In this document: in pieces, positions 17,362 to 24,959 of the stretch
Position numbering within the stretch: position 1 is the stretch's first letter
Layout of the letters: every line of letters begins with the position of its first letter
Source: a bacterium
Lineage (GTDB): Bacteria; Actinomycetota; Acidimicrobiia; Spongiisociales; ZC4RG35
Direction of reading: 5' to 3'
Length of the DNA: 64,000 nt
Assembly: GCA_024638655.1 (NCBI GenBank)
Contig: JAHEJW010000010.1
Coordinates: forward strand, 1 to 64,000
Notes under the pieces: model-generated
Databases searched by the model: none
The model's input: only the letters and a program-made list of their open reading frames with translations
What the model was told of the DNA's origin: nothing
Translations under genes and position numbers: made by a program

Positions 17362-18417
17362 TCAGATCTCTGGGTATAGGTACCGCCGAAGTATGTCCAT
17401 CCTGTCGTCCTGGGTCTCGGGATGGATATACCACAGCATGGCCGCCACGGTCGAGAGGAGAGGGTTCCCGTCCTGAGGCGTGAAGGAGAAACCGACGACC
17501 TCGTTCTCGTTTCGCACCGCAAGGGTCTCCAGTGAGACGACCGCCTGGCTCATGATCCTTCCGTAGTAGCCGTGGTCACGACCGAAGGAGAACACCTGGT
17601 TGGCCGACTTCTTGTGGGTGACGGCGACACGCGTATTCGCCAGCAATCGCTCCTTGACCTCGTCGAGAGTGATCTCACGATCGAGTGTCAAGGCGAAGTG
17701 GAGCGAGTGCATGTACTGGGTGTTCATCTTTATCGCCGACGAGTACAGGCTGAGATCGTGGCCGAGCGTCGAGAAGAGATCGTGAGCGTCTTTGGCATGG
17801 TGAGTGCCGAACCGATCGTGGTCGTGTGCTCCGACCGTGGGGCTGGCCACGAACCCGCTGTCCTGTGAGATGTCGTTGGCCCGCCGGAGGCAGAGGAATC
17901 GACCGTCCTCGAGATGACTCGTACCGTCTTCGTCCATCGCCAGTGCCTTCACCAGCACTGCGATGTTGTGCGTGTTGCAACTGACGATTTGCAGATACTT
18001 GTCGGAGCCGCGGATCAAGGCCTCGTCGTTGATACCCCTCGCGTACTTCTTCCCGAACCCATCCTCGGAGCCCTGTGCCATGAACCCGATGGGTCCGTTG
18101 GCGTTGACGTAAAACTCGTCCTTCTGCTCATTGCCTACTGGCGTGCAGTCGATGACGACCGTGGCTCGCTCGATGGCTTCCACACGGTTGTACTTCGGGG
18201 CGTGGCCGATCTCCTCGAACGTGGCACGTCGGTCTTCGTCCACGCAGAGGACGGCACCCCGGTCGACCAGGTCGTTCACCTTGGCCCTCTCCGTGACCAG
18301 TGGCGTCCTCTTGTGAAAGGTGACCTCTTCGATGCCGAAGTGCTCCTTGTTGTCGGCGAGGAGGCCGATCAGCGGCTCACCGATCGTGCCGGTGCCCACG
18401 ATATGGACGATGTTCAT
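17362..18417 (-). CDS. gap2: type II glyceraldehyde-3-phosphate dehydrogenase
   Basis: 351 residues from ATG 18417, chosen because GGAGG lies 8 bases upstream and because a Rossmann start VHIVGTGTIG follows at once. The catalytic Cys is C147 in VSCNTHN, the signature of archaeal-type (type II) GAPDH. Classical bacterial GapA instead has SCTTN. The size fits type II enzymes. It catalyses the NAD(P)-dependent oxidation and phosphorylation of glyceraldehyde 3-phosphate, or the reverse. The gene is isolated from other glycolysis genes and sits between a Rieske-TPP enzyme and a small protein. An apparent N-terminal extension of 75 residues overlaps the upstream gene and is rejected. Confidence 0.85.
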   Translation of the reverse strand: MNIVHIVGTGTIGEPLIGLLADNKEHFGIEEVTFHKRTPLVTERAKVNDLVDRGAVLCVDEDRRATFEEIGHAPKYNRVEAIERATVVIDCTPVGNEQKDEFYVNANGPIGFMAQGSEDGFGKKYARGINDEALIRGSDKYLQIVSCNTHNIAVLVKALAMDEDGTSHLEDGRFLCLRRANDISQDSGFVASPTVGAHDHDRFGTHHAKDAHDLFSTLGHDLSLYSSAIKMNTQYMHSLHFALTLDREITLDEVKERLLANTRVAVTHKKSANQVFSFGRDHGYYGRIMSQAVVSLETLAVRNENEVVGFSFTPQDGNPLLSTVAAMLWYIHPETQDDRMDILRRYLYPEI

Positions 18418-18532
18418 CAGGAATCCCTCCGAAGCGAGTGCGTTGGCATGTTCGCATCGACATAGTACCCGTCGCCGCCCTGGGTCATCGTGGGCAAAAG
18501 CGAAGGCGGGCTCTGCCTCCCATACGGTCTCT

Positions 18533-20485
18533 TCAGACGAGAAGTGGGTCGGTGTCGACGTGGACGATCGACGGGCCGCGGTGGTCCAAGGCCGAGCGAA
18601 TAGCGTTGTCCAGATCGTGACGACGGTCGACCCTGACCCCAAATCCTCCGCAGAGCCTGGCGAACTCGGCGAAGTCCGGATTCACCAGGTCCGTTTGCCA
18701 GACGTCGTACTCCTCGCCCCTCTGCTCTTTGCTGATCTTCCCTAGCTCGTCATTGACCAGCAACACCAGGGTGATGTTCATGTCGTGCTTCACCGCAGTG
18801 GTGAACTCCATGGCGTATTGACCGAATCCCCCATCACCCGCAACTGCTATCAGCTGATTTGCGTCTCCTACCGCCGCCCATGCCCCCATGGCCGCAGGGA
18901 AGGCGAACCCGATCGACCCGAGGTAGCCAGACATGATCACCGATTGGCGCTCGGTCTCGAAATAGCGCCCGAATGAATAGGTGTTGTTGCCGACATCGAC
19001 GGCGATCACGGCATCTGGCTCGACCAGCCTGGCCATTGACTCGAAGATCGCTTCGGAGTTGATCCCTTCGTCCGTCATGTCTGTCCGCCGACTCGCCTTC
19101 TCCGCCCGCCATATGTCCCAACGGTGGGCCACCTCCTCGGTCCGATCATGGAAGTTGTGGTCGGCGGGCATCCGCTCGGCCAGGAGCCGGGCGGTGACTC
19201 CAACGTGGCCCAGGACCGGGATGTCCACAGAGTGGAAGCGCCCCAATGCCATTGGCTCGTAGTCCACCTGGACGATGGGCTTGTATTCGGCGATCCCGGT
19301 GTGATTGGAGAAAGAGGCCCCGAACACGACGAGAAGATCACTCTCGTTCATGAACCAGGAAGCGATTGGTGTCCCGCTCCGGCCCAGGACGCCACATCCC
19401 AACGGGTGCGAGTCCGGAATCTGACCCTTGGCCTTGAAGGTGGTGACCACCGGAGCGCCCATCGACTCCGCGCAGCGGATTATCTCGTCCATATCGTGTC
19501 GTGCTCCCGCTCCGACGATGAAGAGCGGCTTCGTGGATTCGGCGATGCGTTTGACGGCGGCATCAAGGACTTCATCCGGAGGAGATGCCTCGCGACTTCC
19601 GACCCGGCCTTCTGGTGAGCCGGCTTCGGCCTCACTCGGGACCTTCTGCACCTCGTCTGGCAGCATGAGATGCCCGACCTGTCGATCGACCAACGCGGTC
19701 TTGCACGCGATGTTCATCAGCTCAGCCGCGTCACTTCCCGCCTGCACGACATGGCTGTACTCGGCGACGTCGGCGAATGCGGCTTCGAGATCGAGATCCT
19801 GAAAGGCACCCCTCCCCTTGACACTCGAGGCCACCTGTCCGGAGATGGCGAGTACCGGCGCCCGGTCCACCTTGGCGTCGTACAAGCCCGTAAGGAGGTT
19901 GGTCGAGCCCGGTCCCGCAATCCCGAAACAGGCCGAAAGACGTCCTGTGAGCTTTCCGTAGGCGCTTGCCGCGAAGGACGCAGCTCCCTCATGTCTGATT
20001 CCGACATAGGTGAGCTGGCCACGGGCCTCGGCCTCTCTCATGGCATCTGCGAACCCAAGGTTGGAATGCCCCACCATCCCGAAGACGTGCGTCACACCCC
20101 AGTTCACCATCGTTTCGACGAGGACGTCACTGATCGTCCTCTCCCGCTCGTGTTTGGGCGGTAGGGCGACATATACGCCGTCGTCGCGAATCTCGGTGAC
20201 GAAGCAGGATGGTGCATCGTCGAATCCCTCGGGGGGCTCACCTGTCAGAGGGTCGTAGTCGTATCCGTGCCAGGGACATCGAAGCCACCCGTGCTCGATG
20301 GAGCCTTCGCCGAGCGGGCCTCCCTGATGTGGGCAATGATTGTCGAGGGCGCCGTACTTGCCTTTGTAGTGGCTGAGGGCGAGCCATCGTCTCCCGACCG
20401 TGACAGTCTTGACCCGCCCCTCTGGGAGCTCATCGAGCTCGGCGACTTTGTGCCATGTTGAGTCGGAGTGTTCGCAGCCGGCCAT
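18533..20485 (-). CDS. fusion of a Rieske [2Fe-2S] domain with a TPP-dependent pyruvate oxidase-like enzyme
   Basis: 650 residues. Residues 1-110 form a Rieske ferredoxin domain: C51-x-H53 and C70-x-x-H73 with 16 residues between, exactly the cluster-ligand spacing, in HCPHQGGPLG and RCPWHG. From about 115 a full TPP enzyme of the pyruvate oxidase/acetolactate synthase family follows: catalytic Glu in IRHEGAAS, central FAD/UDP-like domain, and the diphosphate motif GDGGFGQYAMEFT ending in VNDE. Usual members of the family have no Rieske domain. The likely reaction is decarboxylation of a 2-oxoacid with electrons leaving through the iron-sulfur centre. This is inference. It starts ATG and lies downstream of aceA. 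Confidence 0.9.
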   Translation of the reverse strand: MAGCEHSDSTWHKVAELDELPEGRVKTVTVGRRWLALSHYKGKYGALDNHCPHQGGPLGEGSIEHGWLRCPWHGYDYDPLTGEPPEGFDDAPSCFVTEIRDDGVYVALPPKHERERTISDVLVETMVNWGVTHVFGMVGHSNLGFADAMREAEARGQLTYVGIRHEGAASFAASAYGKLTGRLSACFGIAGPGSTNLLTGLYDAKVDRAPVLAISGQVASSVKGRGAFQDLDLEAAFADVAEYSHVVQAGSDAAELMNIACKTALVDRQVGHLMLPDEVQKVPSEAEAGSPEGRVGSREASPPDEVLDAAVKRIAESTKPLFIVGAGARHDMDEIIRCAESMGAPVVTTFKAKGQIPDSHPLGCGVLGRSGTPIASWFMNESDLLVVFGASFSNHTGIAEYKPIVQVDYEPMALGRFHSVDIPVLGHVGVTARLLAERMPADHNFHDRTEEVAHRWDIWRAEKASRRTDMTDEGINSEAIFESMARLVEPDAVIAVDVGNNTYSFGRYFETERQSVIMSGYLGSIGFAFPAAMGAWAAVGDANQLIAVAGDGGFGQYAMEFTTAVKHDMNITLVLLVNDELGKISKEQRGEEYDVWQTDLVNPDFAEFARLCGGFGVRVDRRHDLDNAIRSALDHRGPSIVHVDTDPLLV

Positions 20486-20579: not shown

Positions 20580-21857
20580 TCAGAATTGCTCTTCCTCGGT
20601 GCTTCCGCTCAGAGCCAGCGTCGAAGAAGATCCTCCGCTGACCGCCTGGCTGACCAGGTCGAAGTATCCGGCCCCGACCTCTCTCTGGTGCCGGGTGGCC
20701 GAGTAACCCTTGTCTTCCATTGAAAACTCGTGGTTCTGCAATTCGACGTACGCCGACATCCCGCGCTCGCGGTAGTCGAGCGCGAGCTCGAACATCGATG
20801 CGTTGAGGGCATGGAACCCGGCGAGGGTGATGAACTGATACCGGTACCCCATAGTCCCGAGCTCTTTTTGGAATCGGGCGATCGTCGATGTGTCGAGATG
20901 TGCGCTCCAGTTGAAGGACGGCGAACAGTTGTAGGCGAGCATCTTCCCCGGGTATTCCGCGTGAATCGCGTCGGCAAAGGCCCTTGCCTCCTCGAGGTCC
21001 GGCTTCGCCGTCTCACACCAGATGAGATCGCAGTGGGGCGCATAGGCCAGACCGCGAGCTATCGCCGACTCCAATCCGCCCGATACCTGGTGAAAGCCCT
21101 CGGCGGTCCGGTCACCGACGATGAAGCGCCGATCTCTCTCGTCGACGTCGGAAGTGAGGAGTGTTGCCGAGTTGGCGTCGGTGCGGGCCACGATGATCGT
21201 CGGGACCCCCATGACGTCAGCAGCGAGCCGCGCAGATTGCAGCGTCCGGACGTGCTGGCTGGTCGGCACCAAGACCTTTCCCCCCATATGGCCGCACTTC
21301 TTCTCGGCCGCCAGTTGGTCCTCGAAGTGCACACCTGCAGCGCCGGCGGCTATGAAGCTCTTGGTCAGCTCGAACACATTGAGCGCGCCACCAAACCCGG
21401 CCTCGCCGTCGGCGACGATCGGGACGAACCAATCGATTTCGGTGTCACCTTCAGCCCAGTGGATCTGGTCGGCTCGCCGGAGTGCGTTGTTGATGCGATC
21501 GACCAACGCTGGTGCGGAGTTGGACGGGTACAGAGATTGGTCGGGATAGACCTCGCCGGCCAGGTTCCCGTCGCCTGCCACCTGCCAGCCGGACAGATAT
21601 ATCGACTTCAACCCTGCCTTGACCATTTGGACCGCCTGGCCGCCACTCAGCGCACCCAACGCGTTGAGGTAATCCTCGGTGTTCAGGAGATCCCAGAGCT
21701 TGGCCGCCATTCGGTACGCCAGAGTGTGCTGCTCACGAATGCTCCCACGCAGCCTGATGACCTCCTCGGGCCCATAGTCCCTCGTGATCCCATCCCATCT
21801 CGGGTTGTTCTGCCAGTCCTCGGCCAGGCGGGCTGCTTCGTTTCGATAGTTGTCCAT
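20580..21857 (-). CDS. aceA: isocitrate lyase
   Basis: 425 residues. Splits isocitrate to glyoxylate and succinate, first step of the glyoxylate shunt. The signature [11 protein letters not shown] contains the catalytic Cys; also [25 protein letters not shown] and [12 protein letters not shown]. Length is that of the short actinobacterial/enterobacterial AceA. It lies 10 bases downstream of malate synthase, and the pair is transcribed from the intergenic region shared with ramB. A hairpin (GGGCC, 4 bases, GGCCC, 20508-20521) follows about 60 bases after the stop. Confidence 0.98.
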
Positions 21858-21867
21858 GGTCCTCTCC

Positions 21868-23427
21868 CTAGTTGATCAACTCGTAGGCGGGCAAAGTCAG
21901 GAAGTCAACGAAGTCGTCGGACAGCGACACCTCCTCGAACACCTTTCGTGCCGCTTCGAGCCGCTTGCTGAAAGGGTGACCGGCCGCCTCCAACTCAGCG
22001 ACGGTCTCACCTGCGATCGATCGGACCAGATGCTCGGTGACTTGCGAGCCCTCGTCGGTGGTGACACCGTGGTGAACCCACTGCCAGATCTGGGATCTAG
22101 AGATCTCGGCCGTTGCGACGTCCTCCATCAGGTTGTTGATCCCCGCCGCACCGACTCCCGAGAGCCACGAAGCGAGATACTGGATGCCGACCGACACGTT
22201 GGTGCGGACACCCGTCATGGTGACCTCCCCCGGGAAGTCGAGATCGAGCAAGCCTTCATTGCTGACATCGACATCGTCTCGTCGAAGATCTACTTGATTC
22301 GGTCTATCACCCAGCACCGCGTTGAACTCGTCCATGGCAACAGACACCAGGTCGGGATGAGCCACCCAGGTGCCATCACACCCGGCGCCCGCCTCGCGAG
22401 CCTTGTCTGCCGACACGGCGGCAAAGGCCGCCTCGGTGACCTCGGGATCTCGCCGGTTTGGGATGAAGGCGGCCATTCCCCCTATGGCATGTGCGCCGCG
22501 TCGATGACAGGTCTGGATCATCAACTCCGTGTAGGCGTGCATGAACGGGACCGTCATGGTGACCTGAGACCGATCGGGAAGGACCATCTCGGGATCGTGA
22601 CGGAACTTCTTGATGACCGAGAATATGTAGTCCCAGCGTCCTGCATTCAAACCAGCCGCGTGATCGCGTAGCTCGTAGAGGATCTCGTTCATCTCGTAGG
22701 CCGCCAGGACGTTCTCGATGAGAACTGTTGCCTTGATGGTTCCAAGCGGCATCCCCAGACGGTCCTGCGCCCAGATGAAGACGTCGTTCCAGAGGCGCGC
22801 CTCGAGGTGTGACTCGAGCTTGGCGAGATAGAAATACGGTGCGGTTCCGTTCTCAAGCGCAGCCCGACCACCATGAAACATGTAGAGGCCGAAGTCGAAC
22901 AGCGAGGCTGACATGGAGCGGCCATCGACCTGGAAGTGTTTCTCCTCCAGATGCCACCCCCTCGGCCTGACGAGGAGTGTGGCGGTCTCCGGGTTCAGCT
23001 CGTAGGTCTTTGCTTCGGTCTCGAGTCGCAGCGTTCGCTCATGAGCCTCTACCAGGTTGGCCTGACCCTCCAACAGGTTCTGCCAGGTGGGAGAGGTGGC
23101 GTCCTCGAAATCGGCCATGAAGACCTTCGCTCCCGAGTTGAGCGCATTGATCATCATCTTCCGGTCTACCGGCCCGGTTATCTCGACCCTACGATCGGTC
23201 AGATCAGCCGGAACCGGGGCGATCTCCCACGCCGACTCCCTGATCTCTCGGGTGGAGTCGAGGAATTCGGGCCGTCTACCGGCGCCGAGCTCTTCCTGGC
23301 GAAGTTGTCGCGCCGCCAGTATCTGCCCCCGCCGCCATCGGAACTCGTTCTCCAGGTCGTCGAGAAAGGCCACTGCATCCGGCGTGAGCACCCTTTTTTC
23401 ATATTCGCTGGTGCGGAACTGATTCAT
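21868..23427 (-). CDS. aceB: malate synthase A
   Basis: 519 residues, A-type TIM barrel enzyme. Condenses acetyl-CoA with glyoxylate to malate, completing the shunt with aceA. Family stretches are visible: [67 protein letters not shown] (parts), and the catalytic-loop Asp region. ATG at 23427. Actinobacteria such as mycobacteria usually carry the longer GlcB form, so an AceB-type enzyme in an aceBA operon is a small point of interest. Confidence 0.97.
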
Positions 23428-23510: not shown

Positions 23511-24959
23511 ATGACCGAAGCTCAGACCCTCGATCCGCTCATTCTGGGACGTCGGGTGCGGCACTACCGAAATGCCGTCAACCTGACTCTCGACGAACTC
23601 GGGGAGAAGGTCGGCAAGCCCGCCCCGTATTTGTCCCTGCTGGAGAACGGCAAGAAGGAGCCGCGGGTGGCGCTGATGATGGACATCGCCTCCACCCTCG
23701 GAGTCGATGTCGGCGAGCTCTTGGACCCTTCACCTCCAACCAGGCGCGATGAACTCGAAATCGCCCTTCTCAAGGCCCAAGAGACCTCCCTCTTCGACTC
23801 GCTCGACCTTCCCCCGATCAGGCCCAGCGCCCGCATGAGCAATGAAACACTCGCCCATCTGGTCGGTCTCCATCGTGCCGTGAAGGAGAGATCGAGTCTC
23901 GAGTCGGCCGGCTTCGAGGAACTGGCCCGGGCGACCGGAGCTGTGTCGGAATACCTGGCCTCCAAGGACGGCTATCTCGATGACATCGAAGTGGAGGCGG
24001 CTTCGGCCTTGAGGGCCTCGGGCTATCCCGGAGAGGGACCGTTTTCCTCCCGGAATCTCCTCGACCTGACCAGCCACGCCGGCTTCGACCTTCGCCCTAT
24101 CGACGATATGCCTGCCTTCGCCCGCTCCATCATCGACCTGGACAACAACCGGATCTACATCGCACAGCGTGATGAGCTACGCACCAGGCAAGCCCGCAAG
24201 GCCGTACTGCAAACCGTTGCCGGTTTCCTGCTCGGGCATGAAACGGAGCCCGACCTCGATACCTTCTTGCGACAGCGCATGGAGACCGCCTATTTCGCTA
24301 CAGGGGTCCTGGTTCCACAGGACGTCGTCGTGCCGCGTCTCATGGTGGCAAAGGAGAACCACGACATCGACGTCGAGGATGTCAAGGAGTTGTTCTACGT
24401 GTCCTACGAGATGGCGGCCTGGAGGACGGTCAATCTCCTTACCCGACACTTCGGCATCGACAGCCACCTCCTGGTGAGTGACGAGACGGGCACGATCATC
24501 AAGGGATACTCCAACGACGAGGTCCCGATACCAAGGAACGAGCACGGTGCCATGGAGACCCAGCGGCTGTGTCGTCACTGGGGGGCTCGGATCACTTTCC
24601 AGTCGCCCGACAAATACGGAACGCACCATCAATACACCGACACCCCCAACGGCACCTTCTTTTGCACGACCCACGTCGAGGCCGGGCGCGAACCGGCGCA
24701 TGGAATAACGATTGGGGTGCGTTTCGAGGATGCGCGGTGGATGCGGGGCCGGGAAACGGGCAACCGAATGACATCGAGCTGTCCGGACCCCGCCTGCTGC
24801 CGCCAGCCTTCGCCCGAGCTGACCAGCAAGTGGGGAGGAAAGGTCCAGGTCTCGGCCAGATCCCAGGGACGGATTCTGGGCATGCTGGCACCCGACCCTT
24901 ACCCCGAGCTGGACATGCCTCAGGTTCTCGCGGTGGTAGACGGCCACGCAAGCGACTGA
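23511..24959 (+). CDS. ramB: RamB-type regulator of acetate / glyoxylate metabolism
   Basis: 482 residues. N-terminal XRE helix-turn-helix (about 12-68, GRRVRHYRNAVNLTLDELGEKV ... YLSLLENGKK in part), a middle IrrE/DUF955-like segment where the HExxH is not kept, and a C-terminal short-chain fatty acyl regulator domain with several paired cysteines (SCPDPACCRQP). RamB of Corynebacterium and Rv0465c of M. tuberculosis have this layout and control aceA, aceB and acetate genes. Here it is divergent from aceBA, which supports the same job. ATG with TGGAG upstream. Confidence 0.9.
   Translation: MTEAQTLDPLILGRRVRHYRNAVNLTLDELGEKVGKPAPYLSLLENGKKEPRVALMMDIASTLGVDVGELLDPSPPTRRDELEIALLKAQETSLFDSLDLPPIRPSARMSNETLAHLVGLHRAVKERSSLESAGFEELARATGAVSEYLASKDGYLDDIEVEAASALRASGYPGEGPFSSRNLLDLTSHAGFDLRPIDDMPAFARSIIDLDNNRIYIAQRDELRTRQARKAVLQTVAGFLLGHETEPDLDTFLRQRMETAYFATGVLVPQDVVVPRLMVAKENHDIDVEDVKELFYVSYEMAAWRTVNLLTRHFGIDSHLLVSDETGTIIKGYSNDEVPIPRNEHGAMETQRLCRHWGARITFQSPDKYGTHHQYTDTPNGTFFCTTHVEAGREPAHGITIGVRFEDARWMRGRETGNRMTSSCPDPACCRQPSPELTSKWGGKVQVSARSQGRILGMLAPDPYPELDMPQVLAVVDGHASD

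Follow-up and report, generated by a model that had tools for sequence, protein, structure and literature searches.

Here, we describe a gene that joins a Rieske iron-sulfur domain to a complete TPP enzyme, found in a 64,000-nucleotide stretch of bacterial DNA (the window). The fusion is real, old and widespread. Its protein appears to be a ThDP oxidoreductase of the POX type to which a carrier is fused, and our searches found no characterised member. On balance, it is fairly likely that the protein works as a soluble TPP-dependent 2-oxoacid:acceptor oxidoreductase from the POX/PoxB/PQO group, in which the Rieske domain relays electrons instead of the enzyme docking to a membrane quinone. The fusion probably represents a hitherto unstudied route by which electrons are drawn from a keto-acid.

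The fusion gene lies on the minus strand at 18533-20485, starts with ATG and encodes 650 residues. Since the open frame has only 653 codons, the N-terminus of the protein is tightly bounded. The original prediction had placed a Rieske domain and a complete TPP enzyme here, and both were recovered in this exact frame, with all Pfam domains (Rieske, TPP_enzyme_N, TPP_enzyme_M and TPP_enzyme_C) scoring above cut-off on the minus strand, the prediction having named no strand. The Rieske [2Fe-2S] domain, of the ferredoxin type, occupies residues about 9-108 at the N-terminus (20162-20461; PF00355, 8.5e-17, residues 10-83), and a linker of ~8 residues connects it to the PYR domain (TPP_enzyme_N, residues 117-233, 19787-20137). 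The central domain (TPP_enzyme_M, residues 308-433, 19187-19564) and the PP domain (TPP_enzyme_C, residues 497-643, 18557-18997) follow. As judged by its likeness in family and fold, the central domain is probably of the FAD type and would hold the FAD site. An AlphaFold2 model of the monomer, built from 37 homologues (mean pLDDT 89.5, pTM 0.88), shows a confidently modelled β-rich N-terminal domain ahead of a TPP fold of three domains.

The exact Rieske ligands that had been predicted, CxH and CxxH with 16 residues between them, are C51 (20333-20335), H53 (20327-20329), C70 (20276-20278) and H73 (20267-20269). All four are found in one frame in 110 of 110 Rieske-type homologue sequences, which are not all independent genomes, some being one genome fetched twice. 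That the protein contains a Rieske fold with this motif is supported by Pfam, by conservation and by the model. An assembly chimera or a chance motif was rejected, as the fusion is encoded in a single frame in >100 homologue sequences. Taken alone, the Rieske part has soluble Rieske proteins as its nearest solved relatives in Foldseek, for example 3d89 and the CarAc ferredoxin (1vck).

By fold and by tree, the TPP part is nearest to PoxB/PQO/POX. Foldseek places it with PoxB of E. coli and PQO of C. glutamicum (TM ~0.9 of target), and AHAS, including that of plants, and L. plantarum POX (LpPOX) are also among the top matches. The TPP_N/M/C domains, the catalytic Glu and the GDG and Asn metal ligands place it in the ThDP POX/ALS superfamily. 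Residues were mapped from alignments with 1y9d and 3eya. The catalytic Glu and the GDGG motif of the original prediction correspond to Glu166 (19988-19990), equivalent to LpPOX Glu59, and to residues 550-553; D551 and N578 are the Mg ligands, and F228/Q229 are equivalent to LpPOX F121/Q122. E166, F228, Q229 and D551 are conserved among the Rieske members, and N578 is found in 83 of 85. Glu587 (18725-18727), equivalent to LpPOX Glu483, is present in 85 of 85 Rieske members; the residue is Glu in POX/PoxB-type references and Trp in ALS, and the enzyme therefore looks oxidase-type.

Two other residues set the Rieske-TPP family apart. Lys583 (18737-18739) aligns with LpPOX Phe479 and E. coli PoxB Phe465 and is Lys in all 85 non-redundant Rieske members. 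All other sequences, rubredoxin relatives included, have F, M, Q, N or L at this position, and the POX/PoxB references have F or M, so that the aromatic residue or Met of these references is replaced in the fusion. His140 (20066-20068), which aligns with PoxB Asp27, is invariant in the family and unique to it. Together, His140 and Lys583 suggest a substrate other than pyruvate, perhaps an anionic one, and a simple pyruvate pocket seems doubtful given two extra basic residues. The substrate is probably not plain pyruvate; it may be a 2-oxoacid that is dicarboxylic or anionic in some other way. The hydroxyethyl-TPP intermediate of the original prediction, which implies pyruvate, is weakened by these two residues.

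The two ends of the protein also differ from those of the reference enzymes. Ahead of the TPP domain, 13 of 14 PoxB/POX/ALS references have at most 16 residues, the 14th (L168) having an unverified start, which agrees with the earlier claim that standard PoxB and acetolactate synthase proteins carry no such domain. Past residue 643, the C-terminus extends by 7 residues in 83 of 85 Rieske members (0 in two incomplete rows) and by 7-8 in rubredoxin-TPP proteins, compared with 40-71 in POX/PoxB-type references; the fusion thus lacks the C-terminal tail that binds lipid and delivers quinone. In E. coli PoxB, as PMC7245740 describes, residues 558-568 form a C-terminal lipid helix; once lipid is bound, Phe465 can move into the active site, where it enhances electron transfer from TPP to FAD. 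As the Rieske members have neither an equivalent of Phe465 nor the tail, their electron exit has probably changed.

In a sister clade of the fusion, rubredoxin replaces the Rieske domain at the N-terminus (joint support in the tree 1.0; the Rieske clade itself is monophyletic with support 0.92). These rubredoxin-TPP fusions (L119:1894-3648, L120:1550-3316 and L121:741-2519) were found in three genomes only, of one family. The carrier on the TPP enzyme is exchangeable. We also noted that a transketolase-like gene adjoins the rubredoxin-TPP gene in L120 and L121.

A genome scan returned at least 580 related stretches, not all of which need be fusions; the best 80 of these are all Rieske-TPP. The record names of these 80, some of whose MAG labels may be unreliable, include Acidimicrobiia, Acidobacteria, Cyanobacteria (including Xenococcus PCC 7305), Chloroflexi, Planctomycetota, Myxococcota, Bacteroidetes, Balneola, Alphaproteobacteria and others. 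Plasmids of Halorubrum, Halorarius, Haloferax and Salinirubellus also encode the fusion, at 58-59% identity (the Haloferax larsenii homologue is KU306_RS17095), as does a plasmid of Mycobacteroides abscessus, and RefSeq names these plasmid homologues only 'thiamine pyrophosphate-binding protein'. It is found in 20 of 60 relatives of the window's genome (that genome excluded), in 9 of 296 genomes of the phylum sample and 29 of 198 of the class sample (that genome counted), and in 5 of 247 genomes of a phylum sample around one Balneola genome. Carrier-less intermediates in this clade were absent from the Actinomycetota, class and Balneola-phylum samples. Our search of the open literature found no description of the fusion, though subscription journals may differ. 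The original prediction could have failed had many homologues already been characterised; homologues are many, and none that we found is characterised.

Several genes recur around Rieske-TPP. A conserved protein of the flavodoxin/FMN-reductase family was seen in four loci (L127:5160-5876, L065:2069-2827, L130:10871-11614 and L122:4424-5170), which comprise Rieske-TPP loci and one locus of an unfused TPP relative, and is a possible electron partner. Sodium/proton exchanger genes recur beside Rieske-TPP in several unrelated genomes (L068, L079, L081, L084, L124 and L152). On the haloarchaeal plasmids (L123-L126), two Rieske-TPP genes lie near a Rieske-GltB gene, and the other plasmids have mercury(II) reductase-like, DsrE and arsenic-resistance genes nearby. 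A fixed metabolic neighbourhood was rejected, as neighbours other than GltB scatter.

In the window, the fusion is the third gene of a minus-strand row: malate synthase A (21868-23427; TIGR01344, 743 bits, cut-off 594.5), isocitrate lyase (20580-21857; PRK15063, 753 bits, cut-off 562), Rieske-TPP and a GAPDH-like gene (17362-18420), separated by 10, 94 and 112 bp. The glyoxylate-shunt genes that had been predicted are thus present upstream in the same orientation; the predicted GAPDH, by its scores, is no more than distantly related to the type II GAPDH of archaea (PRK04207, 77 bits, cut-off 185; phmmer 7e-8 to 2yyy), too divergent for any Pfam family. Wherever a close relative has that flank, the GAPDH-like gene lies next to the fusion; the malate synthase/isocitrate lyase pair is found in only some close relatives, with conserved order. 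None of the other lineages examined has a glyoxylate-shunt neighbourhood around the fusion. The setting is specific to the lineage of the window, and the central-carbon role that had been read from it loses ground. A divergent HTH regulator, weakly RamB-like, is encoded on the plus strand at 23511-24959 (HTH_3; RamB 23.5 bits, cut-off 700); regulation of the operon through RamB boxes was rejected, as matches to the box are no more than chance.

The commonest neighbour of Rieske-TPP is a protein of ~540 residues with an N-terminal Rieske domain and a glutamate-synthase FMN domain (Rieske-GltB). It was found in the fetched flanks of 25 of 80 bacterial loci and on 2 haloarchaeal plasmids; L038 and L048 are examples of loci with the adjacent pair. 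In most cases it lies immediately upstream in the same orientation, and in several the two genes appear to overlap by 4 bp. It is encoded elsewhere in 21 of 40 fusion genomes without a nearby copy. Rieske-TPP and its GltB-like partner co-occur above chance. Among relatives, the fusion is present in 9 of 12 partner genomes compared with 20 of 60 overall (Fisher p 0.0013), and in the phylum sample in 4 of 6 compared with 9 of 296 (Fisher p 6e-6); both tests count related genomes as independent, and relatedness inflates the co-occurrence. The window's own assembly (G000, 93.3% complete) lacks Rieske-GltB, as do many other genomes with the fusion; four close relatives (G011, G012, G013 and G031) have it, not linked to the fusion.

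The carrier of the partner varies as well. In L030:672-2291 and L064:4299-5873, two N-terminal CDGSH domains replace the Rieske domain of the partner directly upstream of Rieske-TPP. GltB-like proteins with a rubredoxin-like N-terminus (20.4 bits in one of them, just under the cut-off of 23) are encoded in L165:1252-2694 and in L162-L164, a lineage without a TPP fusion in its sampled genomes; the rubredoxin versions of the TPP enzyme and of the GltB-like protein occur separately, in other lineages. The Rieske domains of the partner and of the fusion share 23-32% identity, which does not support recent copying from one to the other. In the partner, the CX5CX4C cysteines are retained and the loop is QGAKTGTGGHLPG in nearly all members compared with QGAKPGEGGQLPG in glutamate synthase, so that the reaction of the partner is uncertain.

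How the fusion may work is suggested by these observations. Glu166 would activate TPP, on which a 2-oxoacid would be decarboxylated. The resulting carbanion/enamine would be oxidised, with FAD in the central domain as the most likely oxidant, and a soluble acceptor would receive the electrons one at a time via the N-terminal Rieske [2Fe-2S] cluster, an exit that would take the place of the route to quinone used by membrane-docked PoxB. The Rieske- (or CDGSH-) fused FMN GltB-like protein may serve as acceptor or functional partner in many organisms, and in some genomes the acceptor is perhaps this partner itself. Sequence shows the architecture, the conserved ligands, the TPP and metal residues, the absence of the tail, the substitutions, the rubredoxin sister and the linkage to the GltB-like protein; we infer the occupancy of the cluster, the FAD, the direction of electron flow, the substrate and the acceptor. 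The Rieske domain is best read as an electron relay, which is how such domains are known to behave. Three observations strengthen this reading: the sister clade carries rubredoxin, the membrane tail is missing, and a Rieske/CDGSH-GltB protein co-occurs. More tentatively, the two proteins might form a two-enzyme redox module common to bacteria and haloarchaea, in which the ThDP enzyme oxidises a 2-oxoacid and single electrons pass through exchangeable fused carriers (Rieske or CDGSH) to a reducing flavin enzyme, for example for amination.

Were the protein an ordinary pyruvate oxidase or pyruvate:quinone oxidoreductase with an accessory Rieske domain, it would convert pyruvate to acetate and CO2 and pass the electrons to quinone or oxygen. 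Its best NCBIfam match is indeed pyruvate oxidase PRK08611 (403 bits), PoxB and PQO are among its best folds, and an acetate producer beside the glyoxylate shunt is metabolically sensible. We nevertheless regard this as quite unlikely: the fusion falls far under every pyruvate oxidase/PoxB equivalog cut-off (403 of 742, 324 of 788, 293 of 792 and 279 of 638 bits), lacks the lipid/quinone tail, has Lys in all members at the Phe465/Phe479 position, and carries the unique His140. Nor does it reach the acetolactate synthase cut-off (279 of 538 bits), and Pfam finds no PFOR domain with 4Fe-4S clusters. Plain membership of PoxB, POX, ALS or PFOR was accordingly rejected on family cut-offs and diagnostic residues.

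It is also unlikely that the protein is a non-oxidative ThDP enzyme, a decarboxylase or carboligase related to acetolactate synthase, in which the Rieske domain would be structural or redox-sensing. Plant AHAS structures rank among the best fold matches, the ALS family retains FAD yet is non-oxidative, and Lys583 could mean altered, non-oxidative substrate chemistry. However, position 587 has the POX-type Glu and not the Trp of ALS, and the strict conservation of four Fe-S ligands and the rubredoxin sister favour electron transfer over a scaffold; a mere scaffold is hard to explain, as unrelated one-electron carriers swap on one enzyme. In the original prediction, the cluster could take electrons from the TPP-bound intermediate. 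The relay survives as the best reading, and a direct, PFOR-like transfer without flavin is not indicated because the middle domain looks FAD-type. We consider such a transfer very improbable, even though the PoxB residue that aids TPP-FAD transfer is Lys in all members: TPP_enzyme_M is complete with invariant positions (G325, G327, T349, G368, G389 and D408), the nearest families and folds bind FAD, the PFOR domain is missing, and the Rieske domain is N-terminal on its short linker.

POX-type ThDP oxidases are known to pass their electrons to oxygen or membrane quinone. If an oxidoreductase with a Rieske relay is the right reading, the fusion would provide a third electron exit for such enzymes, possibly to a soluble protein partner, and would offer a function for a large group of genes that so far carry only the generic RefSeq name, some on plasmids of cultured haloarchaea. 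It is a concrete case of domain swapping, with Rieske or rubredoxin on a ThDP enzyme and Rieske, CDGSH or rubredoxin on a GltB-like protein.

Compared with known systems, the fusion resembles E. coli PoxB and C. glutamicum PQO in the three-domain ThDP fold, the catalytic Glu, Glu587, the FQ pair (F228/Q229) and the metal motif, but it has an added N-terminal Rieske domain, lacks the C-terminal lipid/quinone tail and shares ~26% identity in structural alignment; relative to PoxB, Phe465 is replaced by Lys583 and Asp27 by His140. The equivalents of E59, F121, Q122 and E483 of the O2- and phosphate-dependent L. plantarum pyruvate oxidase are kept, whereas Phe479 is replaced by Lys583, the Rieske domain is added and the long C-terminal tail is missing; against the SpxB equivalog the fusion reaches 279 of 638 bits. 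Its Rieske domain has the ligand spacing class of the ferredoxin-type Rieske proteins CarAc and T4moC (toluene monooxygenase ferredoxin) and, like them, no third cysteine for a disulfide, but those are free electron carriers for oxygenases and this one is part of a ThDP enzyme. The Rieske-/CDGSH-GltB proteins likewise have a carrier fused at the N-terminus of an oxidoreductase, with an unrelated catalytic domain, the glutamate synthase FMN domain with 3Fe-4S cysteines. Rubredoxin-TPP has an N-terminal one-electron carrier and a short C-terminus on an equivalent TPP enzyme, with Met rather than Lys at position 583.
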